Assembly: GCA_017640685.1 (NCBI GenBank)
Contig: JAEPQF010000022.1
Span: 3,756-35,901 of the forward strand
DNA: 32,146 nucleotides
Direction: 5' to 3'
DNA from: Hyphomicrobiales bacterium
GTDB lineage: Bacteria > Pseudomonadota > Alphaproteobacteria > Rhizobiales > HXMU1428-3
Shown: positions 794 to 31,725 of the stretch, one piece after another
Layout of the letters: each line of letters begins with the position of its first letter
How positions within the stretch are numbered: the stretch's first letter is position 1
Translations under genes and position numbers: made by a program
Notes under the pieces: model-generated
What the model saw: only the letters and a program-made list of their open reading frames with translations
Database searches by the model: none
What the model was told of the DNA's origin: nothing

Positions 794-1498
794 ATGTCAT
801 CCACCACTGAAACTGGGAATGTCTCTGATTCTGTCCTTAAAGACTTTATTAAAGACACAAGCACTGGAAATAATGATTATTTAATCATTAAACAACATGA
901 GACCCAAAAAGATGGTATTGAGCGTCGTCGTTTTCGCCGCTTTAATATGCGCCTTATGGGCCGCTTCATGTTGGAAGATAAATCAGAATATTCTTGCCGC
1001 GTGCTGAATATTTCTGCTGGTGGTGCTGCGATTGCTTCATCGGTCAATCCAAAAATCGGTGAGAAAGTTATTCTATATCTTGATCATATTGGTCGCGCTA
1101 AGGGCCATGTTATGCGCTCTGAGCCAGAAAGTTTTGGTGTTGGGTTTGATATGTCTGACACCCAGCGCGAGCGGATTGCCCTTAAAATATCATGGCTTGT
1201 CAATCAGATTGATGGTGAAATGCCTGATATGCGCCGCCATCACCGCTTTATTGCTAATAATCGTGAAGTTCCGCTTATTCTACCTGGCGAAATAGACATT
1301 ACCTGCCAGGTGCAAAACTTTTCTTTAAGCGGTGCTTCAATTTTAACAACCGCCCGCCCACCAATGGGCTCACAAGTTACATTAGGACAACTTAAAGGAA
1401 CTGTTGCTCGCTATCATGATGAAGGCATCGGTATTGAGTTCACATCAGCGCCTTCGGCTGCCCTATTGCTTTCAGAATTTGGAACGTTATCACCTTAG
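794..1498 (+). CDS. Tandem PilZ-domain protein
   Basis: A 234-residue cytoplasmic protein with two PilZ-like modules, predicted to sense cyclic di-GMP. The first (about residues 43-130) starts with the arginine-rich RRRFRRF motif, followed by VLNISAGGAAI, close to the RxxxR and D/NxSxxG signatures that bind c-di-GMP in PilZ domains. The second (about residues 147-225) has RRHHRF and VQNFSLSGASI but a weaker arginine motif, so it may bind less well or be structural. No signal peptide or membrane segment is visible. The ATG at 794 is preceded by GGAATAAC, a modest ribosome site. The gene follows the PAS_5 gene, but the 206-base gap with a possible terminator suggests its own promoter. Its stop codon lies inside a strong terminator hairpin. 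Confidence 0.85.
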   Translation: MSSTTETGNVSDSVLKDFIKDTSTGNNDYLIIKQHETQKDGIERRRFRRFNMRLMGRFMLEDKSEYSCRVLNISAGGAAIASSVNPKIGEKVILYLDHIGRAKGHVMRSEPESFGVGFDMSDTQRERIALKISWLVNQIDGEMPDMRRHHRFIANNREVPLILPGEIDITCQVQNFSLSGASILTTARPPMGSQVTLGQLKGTVARYHDEGIGIEFTSAPSAALLLSEFGTLSP

Positions 1499-1520
1499 AT
1501 ACGATGTATCTAAGGTTTTT
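1493..1520 (+). terminator. Strong intrinsic terminator overlapping the PilZ stop codon
   Basis: CCTTAGATAC (1493-1502) pairs perfectly with GTATCTAAGG (1506-1515) around GAT and is followed by five T residues. The TAG stop codon at 1496-1498 lies in the 5' arm. Confidence 0.85.
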
Positions 1521-1524
1521 AATT

Positions 1525-1560
1525 GACCTTTAGCTTGCCCACTAGCAACCGGTCTTTTTT
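1525..1560 (+). repeat. Hairpin repeat element, copy 1 (GACC/GGTC outer stem)
   Basis: Outer stem GACC (1525-1528) with GGTC (1551-1554); inner stem TTGC (1535-1538) with GCAA (1545-1548); loop CCACTA; T run from 1555. It shares the loop and inner stem with copies near 20.1, 22.1 and 31.4 kb but has a different outer stem that still pairs. Sitting just behind the PilZ terminator, it may act as a second terminator. Confidence 0.75.
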
Positions 1561-5062: not shown

Positions 5063-5152
5063 TTTACGAACATGTCACAGCGTTTTGCAAAGGCGTCTCT
5101 TCTCTTAACCATGAAGTCTTGTGTATCGTTTAGGGCTTTTACAGATGCCCAC
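5063..5152 (-). pseudogene. Decayed 3' fragment of the neighbouring aminotransferase gene
   Basis: Bases 5075-5152 match 6879-6956 inside the intact aminotransferase gene at 68 of 78 positions by my count, same orientation. Translated on the minus strand it gives WASVKALNDTQDFMVKRRD against [19 protein letters not shown] in the intact gene. About half the differences are silent, the mark of a once-functional copy. The gene's end also survives: TTTACGA (relic stop, 5063-5069), then 12 bases to a terminator with AACTCGA and CCGAG, as behind the intact gene. About 290 bases between these parts are deleted. It lies on the far side of the TIR/GGDEF gene from the intact copy. The short plus-strand reading frame across 4961-5167 is a by-product. 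Confidence 0.8.
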
Positions 5153-5307
5153 GAAGTATCCGCCTGACGCCATTCCCATTTTCTAAAGTCGGCAATGCTT
5201 CTTCTTCGTTAGGAAAAAAATTTAGAATGAGAAAATTTACAAAGGAGTTAACACCTTAGTTTGACTTTGAAAGAGATGTTTATCAATCTTACATTTCTTC
5301 AGTCACA

Positions 5308-6393
5308 TCAATCGAGCATACTTGGTCTAAATGCCTCAATTCTATTACCTAATTTTGCAGCGATGGTCATAGCTATCTCAGACTGTTTAATTAATTGATT
5401 AGGAGTTTTATGACCTCTATCATACACTGACACTCCTATTGAAACAGTCAATTTCATTTCTTGACCTGCAATATTCATAGGGACGCTAACAGATCGTCTC
5501 AAACTTTCTGCTAACAAAGCAATTTCCTGCGGTCTATTTTCTTTTATTAATAATACAGCAATTTTTCCGTCGCAAAACCTTGCTAACGTATCTTGAGAAC
5601 CTAAAAGCCTTATAAATCTGCGAGTAATTATTAATATAATATTATCGATTATATCTTTATCTAAATTGAGATTTAGTTTCTCGAAATTGTCTATTTCTAT
5701 TGAAAACACCACGGGTGAAACCGCTTCATTTTCAAACTTAGCCCTATTTGTTGCAACGTAGAGCCTATCAGTAAACAATGCCCTTTTGGGAAGTCCGGTT
5801 AATTGATCAAATAGAAAGTCATTTAAATTAACAGGGTCATTTGATGGGTAATTTTCCGTATTATAGGGGATTGTTCGATCTGTTTTTTGTAAATCAGTTA
5901 GAGTGACTGCCTCGCTAAGAGCTAGATCTTTTAATGAGGGCTTCAAAAACTGTAACCACAATTGTCCGTAATTTTTTAGTTCTTTATAATTTGGTTCTGG
6001 CGATTTATCTGTAAAACGTTCAATCTCATCAAATAAACTATCTAAAGCGTGTGTCCTTGGATTACCATCCCAGTCTGTTAAATCTAGATATTCCTTATTA
6101 TGATAGGCAACTTTTATGCTGCAATTCTCAATTTTTACGGGTAGAAACTTATTCAATTCTACAGCCAAACTTGCCTCTCTATCAACCCAATCACTTTCAA
6201 CTGACATTTCACACCACAAAACTATAACCACTTTTGCAGCCCGCAGTTTCTGATCAATTTCCTTATTAAAATTATTTCCTTTTACCAATCGATAGTCATA
6301 CCAAACATCATATCCATAAATTTCGAGAATATTTGCCAGGTGTTCTGCAGCTCTGCGTCTCTCACTTTTGTATGAGATAAATACATCTGTCAT
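5308..6393 (-). CDS. TIR domain fused to a degenerate GGDEF domain
   Basis: 361 residues, starting at the ATG complementary to 6391-6393, which has a strong AGGGGGG ribosome site; the frame runs 21 codons further up without one. Residues 1-125 are a bacterial TIR domain: TDVFISYKSERR, YGYDVWYDYRL, VVIVLWCEMSVESDWVDREASLAVE. Glu73 in SDWVDREAS occupies the catalytic Glu position of TIR NAD+ hydrolases. After a linker (130-190), residues 193-357 have a GGDEF fold: DQLTGLPKR (196-204), FSIEIDNFEKL (Asp235 at the metal site), LTVSIGVSVYD and SEIAMTIAAKLGNRIEAF. The signature loop reads CDGKI (274-278) in place of GG(D/E)EF, so cyclase activity is unlikely. The protein may sense a nucleotide and switch on TIR NADase, as in some anti-phage systems; that is inference. 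The gene is AT-rich and flanked by a duplicated aminotransferase end, suggesting acquisition. Confidence 0.85.
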   Translation of the reverse strand: MTDVFISYKSERRRAAEHLANILEIYGYDVWYDYRLVKGNNFNKEIDQKLRAAKVVIVLWCEMSVESDWVDREASLAVELNKFLPVKIENCSIKVAYHNKEYLDLTDWDGNPRTHALDSLFDEIERFTDKSPEPNYKELKNYGQLWLQFLKPSLKDLALSEAVTLTDLQKTDRTIPYNTENYPSNDPVNLNDFLFDQLTGLPKRALFTDRLYVATNRAKFENEAVSPVVFSIEIDNFEKLNLNLDKDIIDNIILIITRRFIRLLGSQDTLARFCDGKIAVLLIKENRPQEIALLAESLRRSVSVPMNIAGQEMKLTVSIGVSVYDRGHKTPNQLIKQSEIAMTIAAKLGNRIEAFRPSMLD

Positions 6394-7953: not shown

Positions 7954-10476
7954 TTATTCCGTCTCTTCTTCAGGGATTTCATAGACTAGGTGTGCGGCTT
8001 GTGCATTTTCAAGGAAACGGCGCATTCTATTGGACAAGTCAATCAACCCCGTTTCAAGGTATATATCATGAGCTTCTGCAAAGGCTGAGATGGCCTGTTT
8101 TAACCCTTCGTGAGCACCATATTGTTCGCTTAAATCCATCATGATTAAGCCAATTTGACTTAGGACTTCTGCTCTTTTGGTTGGGTTGGTTGTTCTAGGA
8201 GTTAAGCCGATGAATTTTTGATAATAGTGGGCAGCTTCCTTTAAAGCTTGTTCGTCAAAATGAACGCGCGCAAATGAAGCCAGCAGCTTGGCCAGATTTA
8301 GATAGAGCATTCCTTTAATGTGAGGGATGTCAAACTGATCCTCATCATCCTCGGTTCTTTTTTCAAGAATGGATATTGCAGTTTCAAGCAAATAATGGGC
8401 TTCATTAAAATCTTCCTGATTGCCATTATTTTTATATTGCCGCTTAGAAAGGAGTGTGACGAGATCACTTATTTCAACAGCCCAGCGAACATCTTGCACG
8501 CCAATCTCTGCAAGCTTTACCAATTCGCGCCTGTCTTTAATGGCGCGATCAAGAGCTATGTCATCCCCTTCGAGCACGAACAACAACTCTCTTAATCTGG
8601 CGCGCAACCTTAAGAGAACATCTTTTGTTGGCCATAATTTTCCGTTTTGCCCAATGACCGAACAGATACATGAAATTGCCGTTATCACTTGCTCTTTCTT
8701 TCGATCAATCAGAGCCAACCTTGCTTTTGCAACGGCAATACCTCGCTCAATCTTGTCTCTTGTTTGGCCAGATACTCCCATATCCAAGATATCGTTAAAT
8801 CTATAAATGGCTTGTTGATGGTGTTTGCCATCATTGCTGATGCCGCCATAATTTAAATAGCATTCTGCAAGTGCTAATTTGGTTTCTTTGATTGATTGTT
8901 TTGAGCTGTATAATTTATCTTCAAGCAAGCTTTCAAAATGATGAATGGCTTTTTCGATAAGCTCTGCCTCACCAAACCTTGTTCCCCAACTTAGATAGAG
9001 CTTGCCTAGTTCAAGCCTGATGTCAGACTTTCTTATCTTCATGAAGTTATTTTTGTGAACTTCACTTTCAGGTTGGGATAAAGCTAAACTGGCTAGAAAC
9101 CCATTTTCTGCTCGCTCCAAACCCTGCACGCCCATATTTCGTTTGGCGTCGTTTAGGGCTAATTTTCCTTTGGCGAAATAGGCTTCGCACATGGCGTCTT
9201 CTTGTTTGTTTTGCCGCCACAGTTCTATGGCTTCATCAAGAGCTAGTTCAATAGATTGGTGAGTATGCCCCTTTTCCGTAATCTCATCTTGCTCAATGAT
9301 CGATTTCCCTTGTTGGCCCAAACTCATATGATTAGACATATTGTTCGATACTGCAAAGGCGAGTTTGCACATGAGCTTTCCCCAACTGTGAGGATAATTA
9401 TCTCGCCTGAAATTGCGGATGGCTTTTTGAACCGCCTGTTTTATTTGAACGGCATAAGATAAATCAGATGGGATTAATTGCATTAAAGCATAGGCGGCAA
9501 AAGCTTCGTTAGCCTGAGCGCCGGCCATCTCAGCTTTTTCCCGGCCTTGCCAATGGTCTTCAGTTAATAGCTGATATAACTCAAGTGAACGTCTTAAAAA
9601 TTCAATATTTTGCCGACCTAACCCAGCTATCAGATAACACCAAGCGGTTATGACAACCAATTCAACATTAGAATTCGTGCTTAGAGCCTTTTCAGTTATT
9701 AAATGCTTATCTAATTGTTTTGCCCAGCGCTCTAGTTTGTTTATTGAGACGATTTGATTGGCACAACCGCATCCTCTGCTCATCACCCCAGCTATTGATG
9801 CGCGCAACAAGATTTCATCGTTTAATTGTTTTCTTCGATTTAAAGGTTCAACTGAAAGGCCTTTCAATTCAAAAAGAGGAAAATCTGAACATTCATAGAC
9901 AAACTTAAAAGGTTCTTTCCCTTCAATGAACTCCCCTTCTTGTACAAGTGGTATTCTTATTTCATTATTTTCAACGTCAGGATCAATGATATGCAATGGG
10001 CCATGAGGGTAGAAATGTAAATCTAACTTCTTATTTTTTACGGTTCCGTTTAGTGAAACTTTTACATTGAAATTTTTGCGACTGGACTTTTCTTTATTTA
10101 AGCTATCATCTTCTGCTAGACCGGTTCTAATTTGGAATGGTAACCCCTTGTTACTCTGGGTCCATTTTGTCCAAAGGTTCGTGGCAAATTCTTTGCGCAA
10201 ACTATCTAACAACCGCTCAGCTAAAAACCCAAATTCATCACCTTGAATTCTATGAAGAGTTAATTGACGATTGATCTGTCTTTTGTTGCGCTTTTTTGTC
10301 ATTGACCGTGAGTTTGTGCGTTTTCCTTTGCTTGCACCCACTGCGTTTGAGCCTGTTAACACTGATGTCACCCAAGCTCCTGCTAACAGAATTAAAATCA
10401 CGGATATAAAGAGAAAGATTTGTTCCAGTGAACTGAGATTACTAGCAAGAGTGGCATCGGTTATTGTTTCATTCAT
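7954..10476 (-). CDS. Large membrane-anchored TPR-like protein of unknown function
   Basis: 840 residues. One hydrophobic segment near the N-terminus (about 17-40, EQIFLFISVILILLAGAWV) is followed by a very basic stretch (KGKRTNSRSMTKKRNKRQINRQ split over 50-72), which by the positive-inside rule puts the bulk of the protein in the cytoplasm. Residues 80-215 form a mixed domain with FGFLAERLLDSLRKEF and a PHGPLHIIDPD stretch that I cannot assign. From about 230 on it is helical with TPR/Sel1-like spacing (EAIELWRQNKQEDAMCEAYFAKG, ALAECYLNYGG, AHYYQKFIGLTPR), a scaffold for protein contacts. A CGC motif occurs at about 235. The ATG at 10474-10476 has an AAGGGGGG ribosome site. It stands alone with paired inverted repeats upstream. 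I do not recognise a named family. Confidence 0.75.
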   Translation of the reverse strand: MNETITDATLASNLSSLEQIFLFISVILILLAGAWVTSVLTGSNAVGASKGKRTNSRSMTKKRNKRQINRQLTLHRIQGDEFGFLAERLLDSLRKEFATNLWTKWTQSNKGLPFQIRTGLAEDDSLNKEKSSRKNFNVKVSLNGTVKNKKLDLHFYPHGPLHIIDPDVENNEIRIPLVQEGEFIEGKEPFKFVYECSDFPLFELKGLSVEPLNRRKQLNDEILLRASIAGVMSRGCGCANQIVSINKLERWAKQLDKHLITEKALSTNSNVELVVITAWCYLIAGLGRQNIEFLRRSLELYQLLTEDHWQGREKAEMAGAQANEAFAAYALMQLIPSDLSYAVQIKQAVQKAIRNFRRDNYPHSWGKLMCKLAFAVSNNMSNHMSLGQQGKSIIEQDEITEKGHTHQSIELALDEAIELWRQNKQEDAMCEAYFAKGKLALNDAKRNMGVQGLERAENGFLASLALSQPESEVHKNNFMKIRKSDIRLELGKLYLSWGTRFGEAELIEKAIHHFESLLEDKLYSSKQSIKETKLALAECYLNYGGISNDGKHHQQAIYRFNDILDMGVSGQTRDKIERGIAVAKARLALIDRKKEQVITAISCICSVIGQNGKLWPTKDVLLRLRARLRELLFVLEGDDIALDRAIKDRRELVKLAEIGVQDVRWAVEISDLVTLLSKRQYKNNGNQEDFNEAHYLLETAISILEKRTEDDEDQFDIPHIKGMLYLNLAKLLASFARVHFDEQALKEAAHYYQKFIGLTPRTTNPTKRAEVLSQIGLIMMDLSEQYGAHEGLKQAISAFAEAHDIYLETGLIDLSNRMRRFLENAQAAHLVYEIPEEETE

Positions 10477-20093: not shown

Positions 20094-20127
20094 TGTGTTT
20101 TTATCTCACGGCTATCCTTTTTTATTT

Positions 20128-20157
20128 GTGCTTCAGTTGCCCACTATGCAACCGCAC
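20128..20157 (+). repeat. Hairpin repeat element, copy 2 (GTGC/GCAC outer stem)
   Basis: Outer stem GTGC (20128-20131) with GCAC (20154-20157); bulge TTCA; inner stem GTTGC (20136-20140) with GCAAC (20148-20152); loop CCACTAT. Upstream bases 20104-20122 (TCTCACGGCTAT then C/T-rich) are shared with the copy at 31400, where the same sequence precedes the element. Confidence 0.8.
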
Positions 20158-20160
20158 CAC

Positions 20161-20265
20161 TGAAGCGGCGAGCATTCCGAGGGGTGGTGCTAAGCGCCGG
20201 ACGCCCCTGGCGTCATGTCCCTCAGCCCGAAAAGGGCTGAGCTCCTTCTTCGGATGGAGAAATTT
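20161..20265. other. GC-rich structured intergenic block
   Basis: Clearly richer in G and C than its surroundings. It contains two clean hairpins: GACGCC (20200-20205)/GGCGTC (20209-20214), and CTCAGCCC (20221-20228)/GGGCTGAG (20234-20241) with a GAAAA loop. It resembles a mosaic intergenic repeat more than a gene; an 80-codon frame across it has no ribosome site or recognisable domain. It lies between two convergent genes. Confidence 0.5.
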
Positions 20266-22030: not shown

Positions 22031-22048
22031 TTTTTAATCTTTTTAACG

Positions 22049-22083
22049 CGGCTTCAGATGCCCACTATGCATCCGCCGTTTTT
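22049..22083 (+). repeat. Hairpin repeat element, copy 3 (CGGC/GCCG outer stem, ATGC-type inner stem)
   Basis: CGGC (22049-22052) with GCCG (22075-22078); bulge TTCA; GATGC (22057-22061) with GCATC (22069-22073); loop CCACTAT; T5 at 22079-22083. The inner stem is the A-T version of the GTTGC/GCAAC stem seen in other copies. Confidence 0.8.
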
Positions 22084-22086
22084 AGT

Positions 22087-22105
22087 GCGGCTTCAGATGC
22101 CCACT
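22087..22105 (+). repeat. Hairpin repeat element, copy 4, 5' half only
   Basis: GCGGC-TTCA-GATGC-CCAC is present but the 3' arm is missing and is replaced by TTTTCTTTG. It is a truncated unit within the tandem cluster. Confidence 0.65.
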
Positions 22106-22111
22106 TTTCTT

Positions 22112-22139
22112 TGCTTCAGATGCCCACATAGCATCCGCA
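22112..22139 (+). repeat. Hairpin repeat element, copy 5 (TGC/GCA outer stem)
   Basis: TGC (22112-22114) with GCA (22137-22139); bulge TTCA; GATGC (22119-22123) with GCATC (22131-22135); loop CCACATA. Confidence 0.75.
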
Positions 22140-22143
22140 TAAT

Positions 22144-22174
22144 CTTCAGTTGCCCACTAGCAACCGGCGTTTTT
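22144..22174 (+). repeat. Hairpin repeat element, copy 6 with T run
   Basis: CTTCA (22144-22148), inner stem GTTGC (22149-22153) with GCAAC (22160-22164), loop CCACTA, then CGGCG and TTTTT. The outer 5' arm is degraded. Confidence 0.72.
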
Positions 22175-22176
22175 AG

Positions 22177-22212
22177 TGCGCCTTCAAGTTGCCCACTAGC
22201 AACCGCCTTTTT
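22177..22212 (+). repeat. Hairpin repeat element, copy 7 with T run
   Basis: TGCGCC then TTCAA; inner stem GTTGC (22188-22192) with GCAAC (22199-22203); loop CCACTA; GCG (22178-22180) can pair with CGC (22204-22206); T run 22208-22212. Confidence 0.75.
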
Positions 22213-22215
22213 ACT

Positions 22216-22247
22216 AGCGCTTTAGGTTGCCCACTAGCAACCGCGCT
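22216..22247 (+). repeat. Hairpin repeat element, copy 8 (AGCGC/GCGCT outer stem)
   Basis: AGCGC (22216-22220) with GCGCT (22243-22247); bulge TTTAG; GTTGC (22226-22230) with GCAAC (22237-22241); loop CCACTA. Its 3' arm overlaps the stop codon of the minus-strand HCCA-isomerase gene. Confidence 0.8.
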
Positions 22248-22839
22248 ATTTACAATAAGATATTGCACGCTCGAGGCGGTCATTGCCCCAGAAGAGTTCA
22301 TCGCCGACGATGAATGAGGGAGCGCCGTAGATTTTTTTCGCTTTTGCTCTTTCTGTTATCTCTCGAAGATGAGATTTATTTTCATCACCATTTGCTCTTT
22401 CAATTATGCCTTCAGCATTTTCAATATTAAGAGCGCTTAAAACACCCAAAACATTCTCTTTGTTTTTTGTCACTAAGCCATCTTGAAACTGCCGCTTATA
22501 AATCGCTTTTGAAAACTCAACGCCCCACCCTTCTTTCATACCGACGAGTGCTACCCTTGCAGCCGCTAGACCAGGATGGGGAAACTCTTCTAAAATTTTC
22601 ATCTGCGGCAAGCCGTAATACTCAGCTTCTCGCTCTATGTCTCGAAAGAAATTTTCGCCTTTTTCAGCATAGATTTTGAAGGGTGACGTTTCCCAGCCAA
22701 ACTCTTTGAACAAAGGCCCTAAAAGAAAGGGCTGATAATGAACTTCTACATTTGCAGCTGCTGCTAAGTCTTCAATTCTCATCATCGATATATATGAGTA
22801 TGGACTTGCAAATTCATACCAGAATTCTAATGTTTTCAT
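22246..22839 (-). CDS. 2-hydroxychromene-2-carboxylate isomerase family protein (DsbA superfamily)
   Basis: 197 residues, the usual length of HCCA isomerase/kappa-class GST-like proteins. EFWYEFASPYSYISMMRIEDLA opens the thioredoxin fold, with Ser12 at the place of the active Ser that binds the glutathione thiol; VHYQPFLLGPLFKEFGWETSPF and YGAPSFIVGDELFWGNDRLE (cis-Pro loop and end helix) are characteristic. The founding enzyme acts in naphthalene breakdown, but most homologues are glutathione-dependent proteins without known substrate, and no aromatic pathway is nearby. The ATG complementary to 22837-22839 has GAGGGAAA upstream. It starts 54 bases after the TauE/SafE gene, probably in one operon. 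Confidence 0.88.
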   Translation of the reverse strand: MKTLEFWYEFASPYSYISMMRIEDLAAAANVEVHYQPFLLGPLFKEFGWETSPFKIYAEKGENFFRDIEREAEYYGLPQMKILEEFPHPGLAAARVALVGMKEGWGVEFSKAIYKRQFQDGLVTKNKENVLGVLSALNIENAEGIIERANGDENKSHLREITERAKAKKIYGAPSFIVGDELFWGNDRLERAISYCK

Positions 22840-31376: not shown

Positions 31377-31399
31377 CTCTCACGGCTATTCTTTTTAAT

Positions 31400-31431
31400 G
31401 CGCCTTCAGGTTGCCCACGAGCAACCGGCGC
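31400..31431 (+). repeat. Hairpin repeat element, copy 9 (GCGCC/GGCGC outer stem)
   Basis: The best-formed copy: GCGCC (31400-31404) pairs with GGCGC (31427-31431); bulge TTCAG; GTTGC (31410-31414) pairs with GCAAC (31421-31425); loop CCACGA. It is preceded at 31378-31396 by the TCTCACGGCTAT stretch that also precedes copy 2. Confidence 0.82.
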
Positions 31432-31438
31432 TATTAAT

Positions 31439-31460
31439 GCGCCTTCAGATTGGCTTTTTT
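31439..31460 (+). repeat. Hairpin repeat element, copy 10, truncated
   Basis: TGCGCCTTCAGATTGGC followed by a T run: the 5' outer arm and bulge are kept, but the inner stem and loop are deleted. Confidence 0.55.
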
Positions 31461-31462
31461 TA

Positions 31463-31487
31463 GCTTCAGATGCCCACTTGCATCCGC
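31463..31487 (+). repeat. Hairpin repeat element, copy 11 (ATGC-type inner stem)
   Basis: GC (31463-31464), TTCA, GATGC (31469-31473), loop CCACTT, GCATC (31480-31484), C, GC. The outer stem is reduced to two pairs; flanking CTTCA and TGAAG (31491) could pair instead. Confidence 0.7.
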
Positions 31488-31725
31488 AATGAAGAAACCG
31501 GCGCAATGCAAGTTGCACATTAGGTTTTGAATGTTACTTGGGTTTCGCGGCCTCTGAAACTGCTTATCCCCACTTGTTTGCCGTTTAATGCCGTGATTTA
31601 AGCTTATTTCTATGCTAGTTACTTTAAACTATGATTTGCTTATAGGCCGAATTTCATTTTGGCTGAATTTCACTGGCTTATTTTCTCTTTGATCCAACAT
31701 TTCAACTGGGCATCTATTATTTAAC
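31488..31725. other. Gap between the hairpin repeats and the envC-like gene
   Basis: Presumed promoter region of the next gene. It holds a 16-base-period direct repeat, GGCCGAATTTCATTTT then GGCTGAATTTCACTGG at 31645-31676, which could be a regulator site. No gene or clear promoter can be assigned. Confidence 0.4.

Follow-up and report, generated by a model that had tools for sequence, protein, structure and literature searches.

Short REP-like hairpin units of Hyphomicrobiales genomes follow strand skew and nest within one another

Here, we report a family of hairpin units of about 40 nt in Hyphomicrobiales genomes whose orientation tracks the replication-type strand skew of the contigs and not transcription, and whose members are found nested in the loops of one another. 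The family was first noticed in the window, i.e., the whole stretch of 32,146 nucleotides analysed here, in an earlier note that described a dispersed hairpin repeat; the one-way orientation, which is the main point, was absent from that note. In our opinion the best explanation, and one we hold somewhat better than even, is that the units are non-autonomous REP-like mobile hairpins that would enter the single-stranded lagging-strand template.

Results

Hairpin structure of the unit

Read on the plus strand of the window, the unit consists of a T-run, a variable outer arm of 3–6 bp, a bulge on the 5' side, an inner arm (G(N)TTGC or GATGC), a loop of CCAC plus two or three bases, and both 3' arms. 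Base frequencies over 438 units place the left edge at the T-run, where T makes up 61–86% at positions -13 to -9 counted from TTCA, and the right edge directly behind the outer arm. The loop had been proposed as CCAC plus two or three bases, but it may also be CTAC. The bulge, too, varies, although the unpaired bases had been described as fixed: it reads TTCA in 219, TTTA in 18, and TTCG in 11 of 248 units, counted with a pattern that admitted only these kinds. Duplicate contexts were removed before the bulge count and before the nesting, flank-pairing, and flank-tag counts.

The stems covary, in agreement with the compensatory changes reported earlier. When 44 units, 42 of them distinct, were aligned by sequence only with MAFFT, paired cells made up 93.9%, and 59 cells are changed on both sides versus 21.9 in shuffles and 2–24 in slid controls; the number of pairs having a double change, 5 versus 4.2, is not unusual. 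Of the 42 rows of this alignment, 32 have T-A and 10 have A-T as the second inner pair; GC, CG, and UA all occur among the outer pairs. Over a larger set of 509 units, the outer arms form 3.90 of 5 pairs versus 2.87 when re-dealt. Pairing is kept or restored; covariation alone, however, is no proof of selection on RNA because arm-to-arm templated correction gives the same pattern.

Copies in the window and in other genomes

All of the 11 sites previously listed in the window hold a copy, and all copies are on the plus strand. Nine are full hairpins (1525, 20128, 22049, 22112, 22144, 22177, 22216, 31400, and 31463), with poorly matched outer arms in units 22144 and 22177, but those at 22087 and 31439 are 5' halves (Table 1). 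A strict pattern gives six matches in the window and none in 100 dinucleotide shuffles. The covariance model, built in part from the window copies themselves, gives eight matches (E 1e-10 to 1e-14), all on the plus strand, and further weaker ones at E 0.17–0.61, including 5129–5168. What looked like a simple head-to-tail cluster is a partly nested arrangement instead. In the nest host at 31438–31505, GGCGCA of the 3' half pairs with TGCGCC of the 5' half (outer arms, 5 of 5 positions); its inner arms pair only partly, and the inner type was scored as unmatched.

Table 1. Units and related features in the window
Position	Strand	Feature
1493-1515		Terminator-like hairpin CCTTAGATAC..GTATCTAAGG, directly before unit 1516..1554
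1516..1554	+	Full unit with T-run and loop; GACC/GGTC as outer arms, TTTA as bulge
5129..5168	+	Possible decayed unit, oriented like the others (11.9 bits, E 0.19)
20104..20255	+ (unit orientation)	Family B copy (larger multi-hairpin repeat); unit replaces its first hairpin arm
20118..20157	+	Full unit within family B copy, outer stem GTGC/GCAC
22040..22079	+	Full unit 1 of cluster, GATGC/GCATC type
22087..22105	+	5' half-unit GCGGCTTCAGATGCCCACT, broken off by next unit; 3' half not found
22106..22139	+	Full unit, outer stem TGC/GCA
22144..22169	+	Full unit, outer arms mismatched
22170..22207	+	Full unit TGCGCCTTCAAGTTGCCCACTAGCAACCGCC
22208..22248	+	Full unit TAGCGC/GCGCTA, most stable among cluster units folded
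31378..31391	+	Family B left end (TCTCACGGCTATTC), directly before unit 31392..31431
31392..31431	+	Full unit, GCGCC/GGCGC
31438..31452	+	Host-unit 5' half (TGCGCCTTCAGATTG)
31455..31487	+	Unit nested in loop of host unit 31438-31505
31495..31505	+	Host-unit 3' half (AAACCGGCGCA)

The stretch 22049–22247 has an orthologue in another species (locus L009, 1505–1691) with five near-identical units, versus divergent and partly broken ones in the window, suggesting local homogenisation or turnover.

The family is dispersed genome-wide, well beyond the four window sites, with at least 173 covariance-model matches in the window's own genome. All eight genomes of the genus (78–99% complete) carry matches, namely at least 177, 173, 164, 158, 138, 40, 35, and 4, which are lower bounds with 150 candidates scored per genome; this genus is the only one examined for its family. 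In a survey of 397 genomes sampled from the order, with 17 candidates scored per genome and stricter filters, 14 carry units at E 1e-5, i.e., the eight of the genus and six of one other family. A scan of a public collection yielded at least 93 stretches (loci L014–L106), of which 80 were listed; the matches listed are in MAGs from uncultured Hyphomicrobiales and their relatives, including Methyloligella sp. DHS20C07, Rhodomicrobium sp. DHS20C08, OFTM213, and OFTM288.

Two other repeat families accompany the units. Family B is a multi-hairpin repeat, mostly 100–180 nt long (TCTCTCACGGCTATTC ... CTCCTTCTTCGTAT), that often carries a unit; copies are found at 20104–20255 of the window, in L019 from 6113, and in L089 (minus strand). 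The arms of its first hairpin vary between copies yet look paired by eye, and no Rfam match was found for this family. Family C is a CCTAAAACCGGTRTCCACTTTTAGG palindrome, sometimes located directly 3' of a unit, with sites in L170 (minus strand) near 10365, L055 near 2945, and L193 near 1535; we take it to resemble a rhizobial palindrome.

Strand orientation

For the orientation analysis, 40 regions were fetched mostly near known matches, so that density is not to be read from them. The majority strand of each contig was taken as the expected strand, and skew served as an independent test. Covariance-model matches, decayed copies included, lie on the majority strand of their contig in 296 of 305 cases over 28 contigs (238/239, 50/58, and 8/8, the last in the window). 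Counted as strict full units (1.62 Mb, four genomes, 28 contigs), 233 of 237 units and 146 of 149 arrays do so, and adjacent full-unit pairs less than 150 bp apart are head-to-tail on the same strand in 88 of 88 cases. The exceptions concentrate in two 400-kb stretches taken regardless of matches, G002:C1 (41 versus 5) and G005:C2 (9 versus 3).

To remove coding effects, 4-fold sites were averaged over the genes on both strands; by this measure, the unit strand is T-rich in all 28 contigs and G-rich in 27 of them, the odd contig having a GC value of 0.016. In intergenic DNA with repeats masked, the unit strand is likewise T-rich in 28 of 28 and G-rich in only 14 of 28 (the intergenic GC skew has the expected sign in 12 of 28 before masking); the two measures concur where a contig has strong GC skew. 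The raw GC skew of regions is noisy, with 145 versus 81 units. Because of this weak intergenic GC and noisy raw GC, the assignment of the leading strand depends chiefly on TA skew and on the 4-fold sites. Individual contigs and genomes vary. In G005:C1, three of three units agree and the GC sign is right in 20 of 20 regions; in G256:C30, which belongs to another family, nine of nine units agree and 16 of 18 regions have the right GC sign, but TA skew does not go along with GC. G343:C2 agrees by GC but G343:C1 disagrees, having three of four units on the C-rich strand. The direction of rpoB, compared in three genomes, agrees with the unit strand in G002 and G004 and runs against it in G005 (G005:C1).

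The ORFs in these regions, which stand for genes here and were called by a simple script without curation, divide equally between the strands, 645 on that of the units and 644 on the opposite one, and, given the agreement with skew, the units therefore follow skew and not transcription. By the usual convention, a strand rich in G and T is leading-sense, and its sequence is that of the lagging-strand template. The unit strand would thus be the leading-sense strand by skew convention.

The gene comparison bears directly on the view that the unit is an RNA element under selection, e.g., a terminator, a 3'-end stabiliser, or a processing site. Covarying stems, the intergenic position of most arrays (133 of 149 outside ORFs of 300 bp or more, at an ORF coverage of 79%), and the depletion of arrays between divergent genes (12 of 123) are what such an element would show, but in 123 cases the gene on the 5' side runs with the unit 59 times and against it 64 times, the T-run comes before the hairpin on the unit strand, and neither the window nor any of five loci has an Rfam match at the gathering cut-off. 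We consider an RNA element very improbable. The selected RNA end offered earlier as one option fits poorly, as orientation ignores gene direction and the T-run is 5' and not 3' of the hairpin; an intrinsic terminator or RNA 3' end was rejected on these grounds.

The same strand bias is found in family B (left end, 85 versus 4) and in family C (15 versus 2). KOPS and Chi are sites of direction-sensing chromosome proteins, and the units could be likened to them, i.e., they would be putative sites for such a protein, with wrong-way copies purged. While the strong polarity common to families B and C speaks for this proposal, and the weaker bias in G002:C1 and G005:C2 leaves room for tolerated wrong-way copies, the same polarity would have to be selected in three unrelated sequences, match numbers range from 4 to at least 177 inside one genus, and nesting and clean insertions need a movement mechanism anyway. 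Selected polarity thus appears improbable to us. Please note that the strength we give to the lagging-strand model was itself lowered because of the masked intergenic GC skew and the weaker bias in the stretches taken regardless of matches.

Nested units and insertion sites

Many seeming half-units are host units that carry another unit in the loop. Among 54 nest candidates, of which some are double-counted, inner-arm types match in 36 (shuffled mean 23.3, maximum 35) and outer-arm pairing is 3.07 versus 2.65 when re-dealt; for either measure, 0 of 2000 shuffles was as high. The inner arms are unmatched in 18 of the 54, the window's own nest among them; some of these 18 are double counts, and others may be multi-level or recombined. 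Lone 3' halves (GCATCCGC, GCAACCG) for which no 5' half matches are also common, e.g., in L020 (minus strand, 5847–6074).

An orthologous pair shows the empty and the filled state of one nest. The loop GATGC-CCACA-AAGCATC in L163 of G004 is occupied by a 43-nt unit in L065 (MAG OFTM213), the flanks being 84 and 90% identical, and the resident loop bases are replaced at the nested site. In L150, a unit occupies the loop of a family B hairpin that is empty in the orthologue L089, and L164 has, relative to the empty site of L019, an insertion without visible target duplication between GTTCCC and TCTCACA. Other orthologous pairs compared were too rearranged to read. Insertion differences are thus seen between related species, and the self-nesting of units is well supported.

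A general preference for hairpin loops outside the unit family is only suggested. Flanking arms pair over at least 6 bp in 29 of 193 single units versus 6.1 when shuffled (maximum 12 in 100 shuffles), an excess that comes mainly from unit hosts (16) and family B hosts (9). Where the flanks are neither unit nor family B, the stem count (4 versus 1.4, maximum 5) is within shuffles, and the duplex energy is outside 100 shuffles. Three of eight empty sites are in a hairpin loop predicted by MFE folding versus 97 of 420 random positions, which is not significant for loop targeting at ordinary sites, and a constant target tetranucleotide was not seen in the few empty sites. Loop-specific insertion has a precedent in IS1397, which inserts in this way into REPs.

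It is conceivable that no transposition is involved and that replication slippage and template switching at hairpins of one template strand, including copying from distant units, generates the copies. Such a process would account for the strand polarity, for compensatory changes templated by the other arm, for locally homogenised tandem arrays (the window cluster versus L009), and for the replaced loop bases at the nested site; against it stands the same discrete unit, with the T-run at its left edge, inserted at unrelated places, which suggests defined ends. We hold such copying without transposition to be a rather improbable source of the family.

Candidate enzymes

A transposase of the RAYT type had been named as a possible mover. 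Y1_Tnp is present in one of the eight genus genomes (searched by PF01797) and in one of the six unit-bearing genomes of the other family. Two Y1 genes are present in G004, of which the one scanned matches REP_Tyr_transpos at 80.4 bits (cut-off 80), and about 1.5 kb fetched around either gene contains no units. The Y1 gene of G390 is an IS200 transposase, and the 2.1 kb fetched with it is without units as well. A RAYT gene flanked by the element, which had been suggested as something to look for, was therefore not seen in the fetched flanks of these three Y1 genes, and with Y1_Tnp this rare, RAYT was rejected as the general mover. Other candidates are not general either: Y2_Tnp and IS110 DEDD are each found in one of eight genus genomes and RVT_1 in two of eight, with no units in the fetched flanks of L207 and L208. 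L207 (1576–2884), from the window's own genome, has a reverse transcriptase ORF and, after it, an ORF that looks CRISPR-associated by eye. The absent enzyme can mean loss, incomplete draft genomes, or a new family.

The short tags of known REPs are scarce at the units. In GTAG-type REPs, the tetranucleotide GTAG (or GTGG) stands 0–2 nt 5' of the hairpin. The outline had been described earlier as REP/MITE-like without the GTAG head, and this holds: among 438 units, GTAG occurs in the five-prime flank of 6 and in the three-prime flank of 10. GTGG, counted anywhere in the flank, occurs in 65 and 33, and CGTC in 20 and 16 five-prime and three-prime flanks, respectively.

Classical REP/RAYT spread, in which a Y1 (TnpA-REP) transposase acts in trans and its gene has been lost or missed in most genomes, is in our view unlikely, if not without merit. 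The size, the bulged hairpin, the copy number, and the single-strand route resemble those of REPs (PMC8266576), and G004 does have its two Y1 genes, one just at the REP_Tyr_transpos cut-off. But Y1_Tnp is absent from seven of eight genus genomes, including G002, in which at least 177 matches, no fewer than in G004, were counted; the flanks of the G004 and G390 Y1 genes are without units; GTAG is absent at units; and every pair of adjacent full units is head-to-tail, whereas most REP families have predominantly head-to-head dimers (PMC3733652).

Discussion

The units are REP-like, and the combination of one-way units, self-nesting, and no tag was not found in the literature searched; in the open literature, which the search covered, no paper on the unit family or its self-nesting was found. 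REPs are described as hairpins of 20–50 nt, sometimes bulged, in many copies, intergenic and clustered, with single-strand recognition (PMC8266576; PMC6006769). Like GTAG REPs and REPINs with RAYT, the units are short hairpins in high copy, mostly intergenic, and in clusters. They differ in having no GTAG head and no inverted dimers among adjacent full units, in the 4-nt bulge on the 5' side, in self-nesting and strong strand orientation, and in that a Y1 gene was not found in seven of eight unit genomes of the genus. A related orientation effect is known from Pseudomonas fluorescens SBW25, where some of the tandem REP arrays point in opposite directions on either side of the chromosome (PMC3116915). 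CGTC REPs, whose tag is CGTC, TGTC, or CCTC, are mostly alphaproteobacterial and repeated, with no associated transposase according to PMC3733652, which also gives predominantly head-to-head dimers, stems of 8–9 bp, negligible head-to-tail pairs, and some REP families located inside palindromes. The units share the mostly alphaproteobacterial, repeated nature and the lack of a transposase found; however, they have no CGTC tag, are head-to-tail, and have a different stem structure.

IS200/IS605 elements transpose by way of an ssDNA circle and insert without target duplication. They resemble the units in their hairpin ends and in an orientation that follows replication (for the units, by skew and with exceptions), whereas the units have no transposase gene, are not two-ended elements, and show no constant target tetranucleotide in the few empty sites. 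For IS608 and ISDra2, insertion into the lagging-strand template with replication-following orientation is described in PMC5371812 and PMC6006769.

Rickettsia palindromic elements (RPEs) are palindromic repeats, some of them in frame within genes, and are longer than the unit and different in sequence. Both are palindromic, and one unit is in frame in an ORF (L195), while units are mostly intergenic. In that locus (minus strand, ORF 401–2521), the unit is in frame in a 706-aa ORF, carboxylase-like by eye, with apparently about 19 extra residues. Two RPE families have been equated with CGTC repeats (PMC3733652).

In the lagging-strand model that we prefer, a non-autonomous hairpin of about 40 nt would move as a folded strand and would join the single-stranded lagging-strand template behind the replication fork. 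Insertion would leave no visible target duplication and would often hit other hairpins, above all the loop of a unit already in place, and the joining would be done by a putative enzyme, which may be HUH-like, lost, rare, or of another kind. The intermediate is probably single-stranded, and hairpin loops may be preferred targets outside the unit family, too. Compensatory arm changes would then reflect the need to fold for movement, or arm-to-arm templated repair, and not an RNA function. Of this model, we observed the copy number, the covariation, the skew-following orientation, the nesting, one orthologous nested site, and insertion differences between species; the leading-sense nature of the skewed strand, the enzyme, the single-stranded intermediate, and the wider loop preference are its conjectural parts. 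More tentatively, and with a good deal less confidence, we suggest that the units may represent a class of miniature single-stranded mobile DNA, set apart from RAYT/REP by tag and enzyme, that would land in hairpin loops of the lagging template, its own loops first, with machinery shared with families B and C.

Head-to-head dimers prevail in most REP families, and any strand preference is thereby hidden; for the CGTC REPs of alphaproteobacteria, no transposase is known (PMC3733652). The unit family raises the question of which enzyme moves units in genomes where a search for Y1 transposase finds none. Units that all face one way and nested insertions that can be dated make single-strand, replication-coupled dispersal of REP-like elements testable from sequence.
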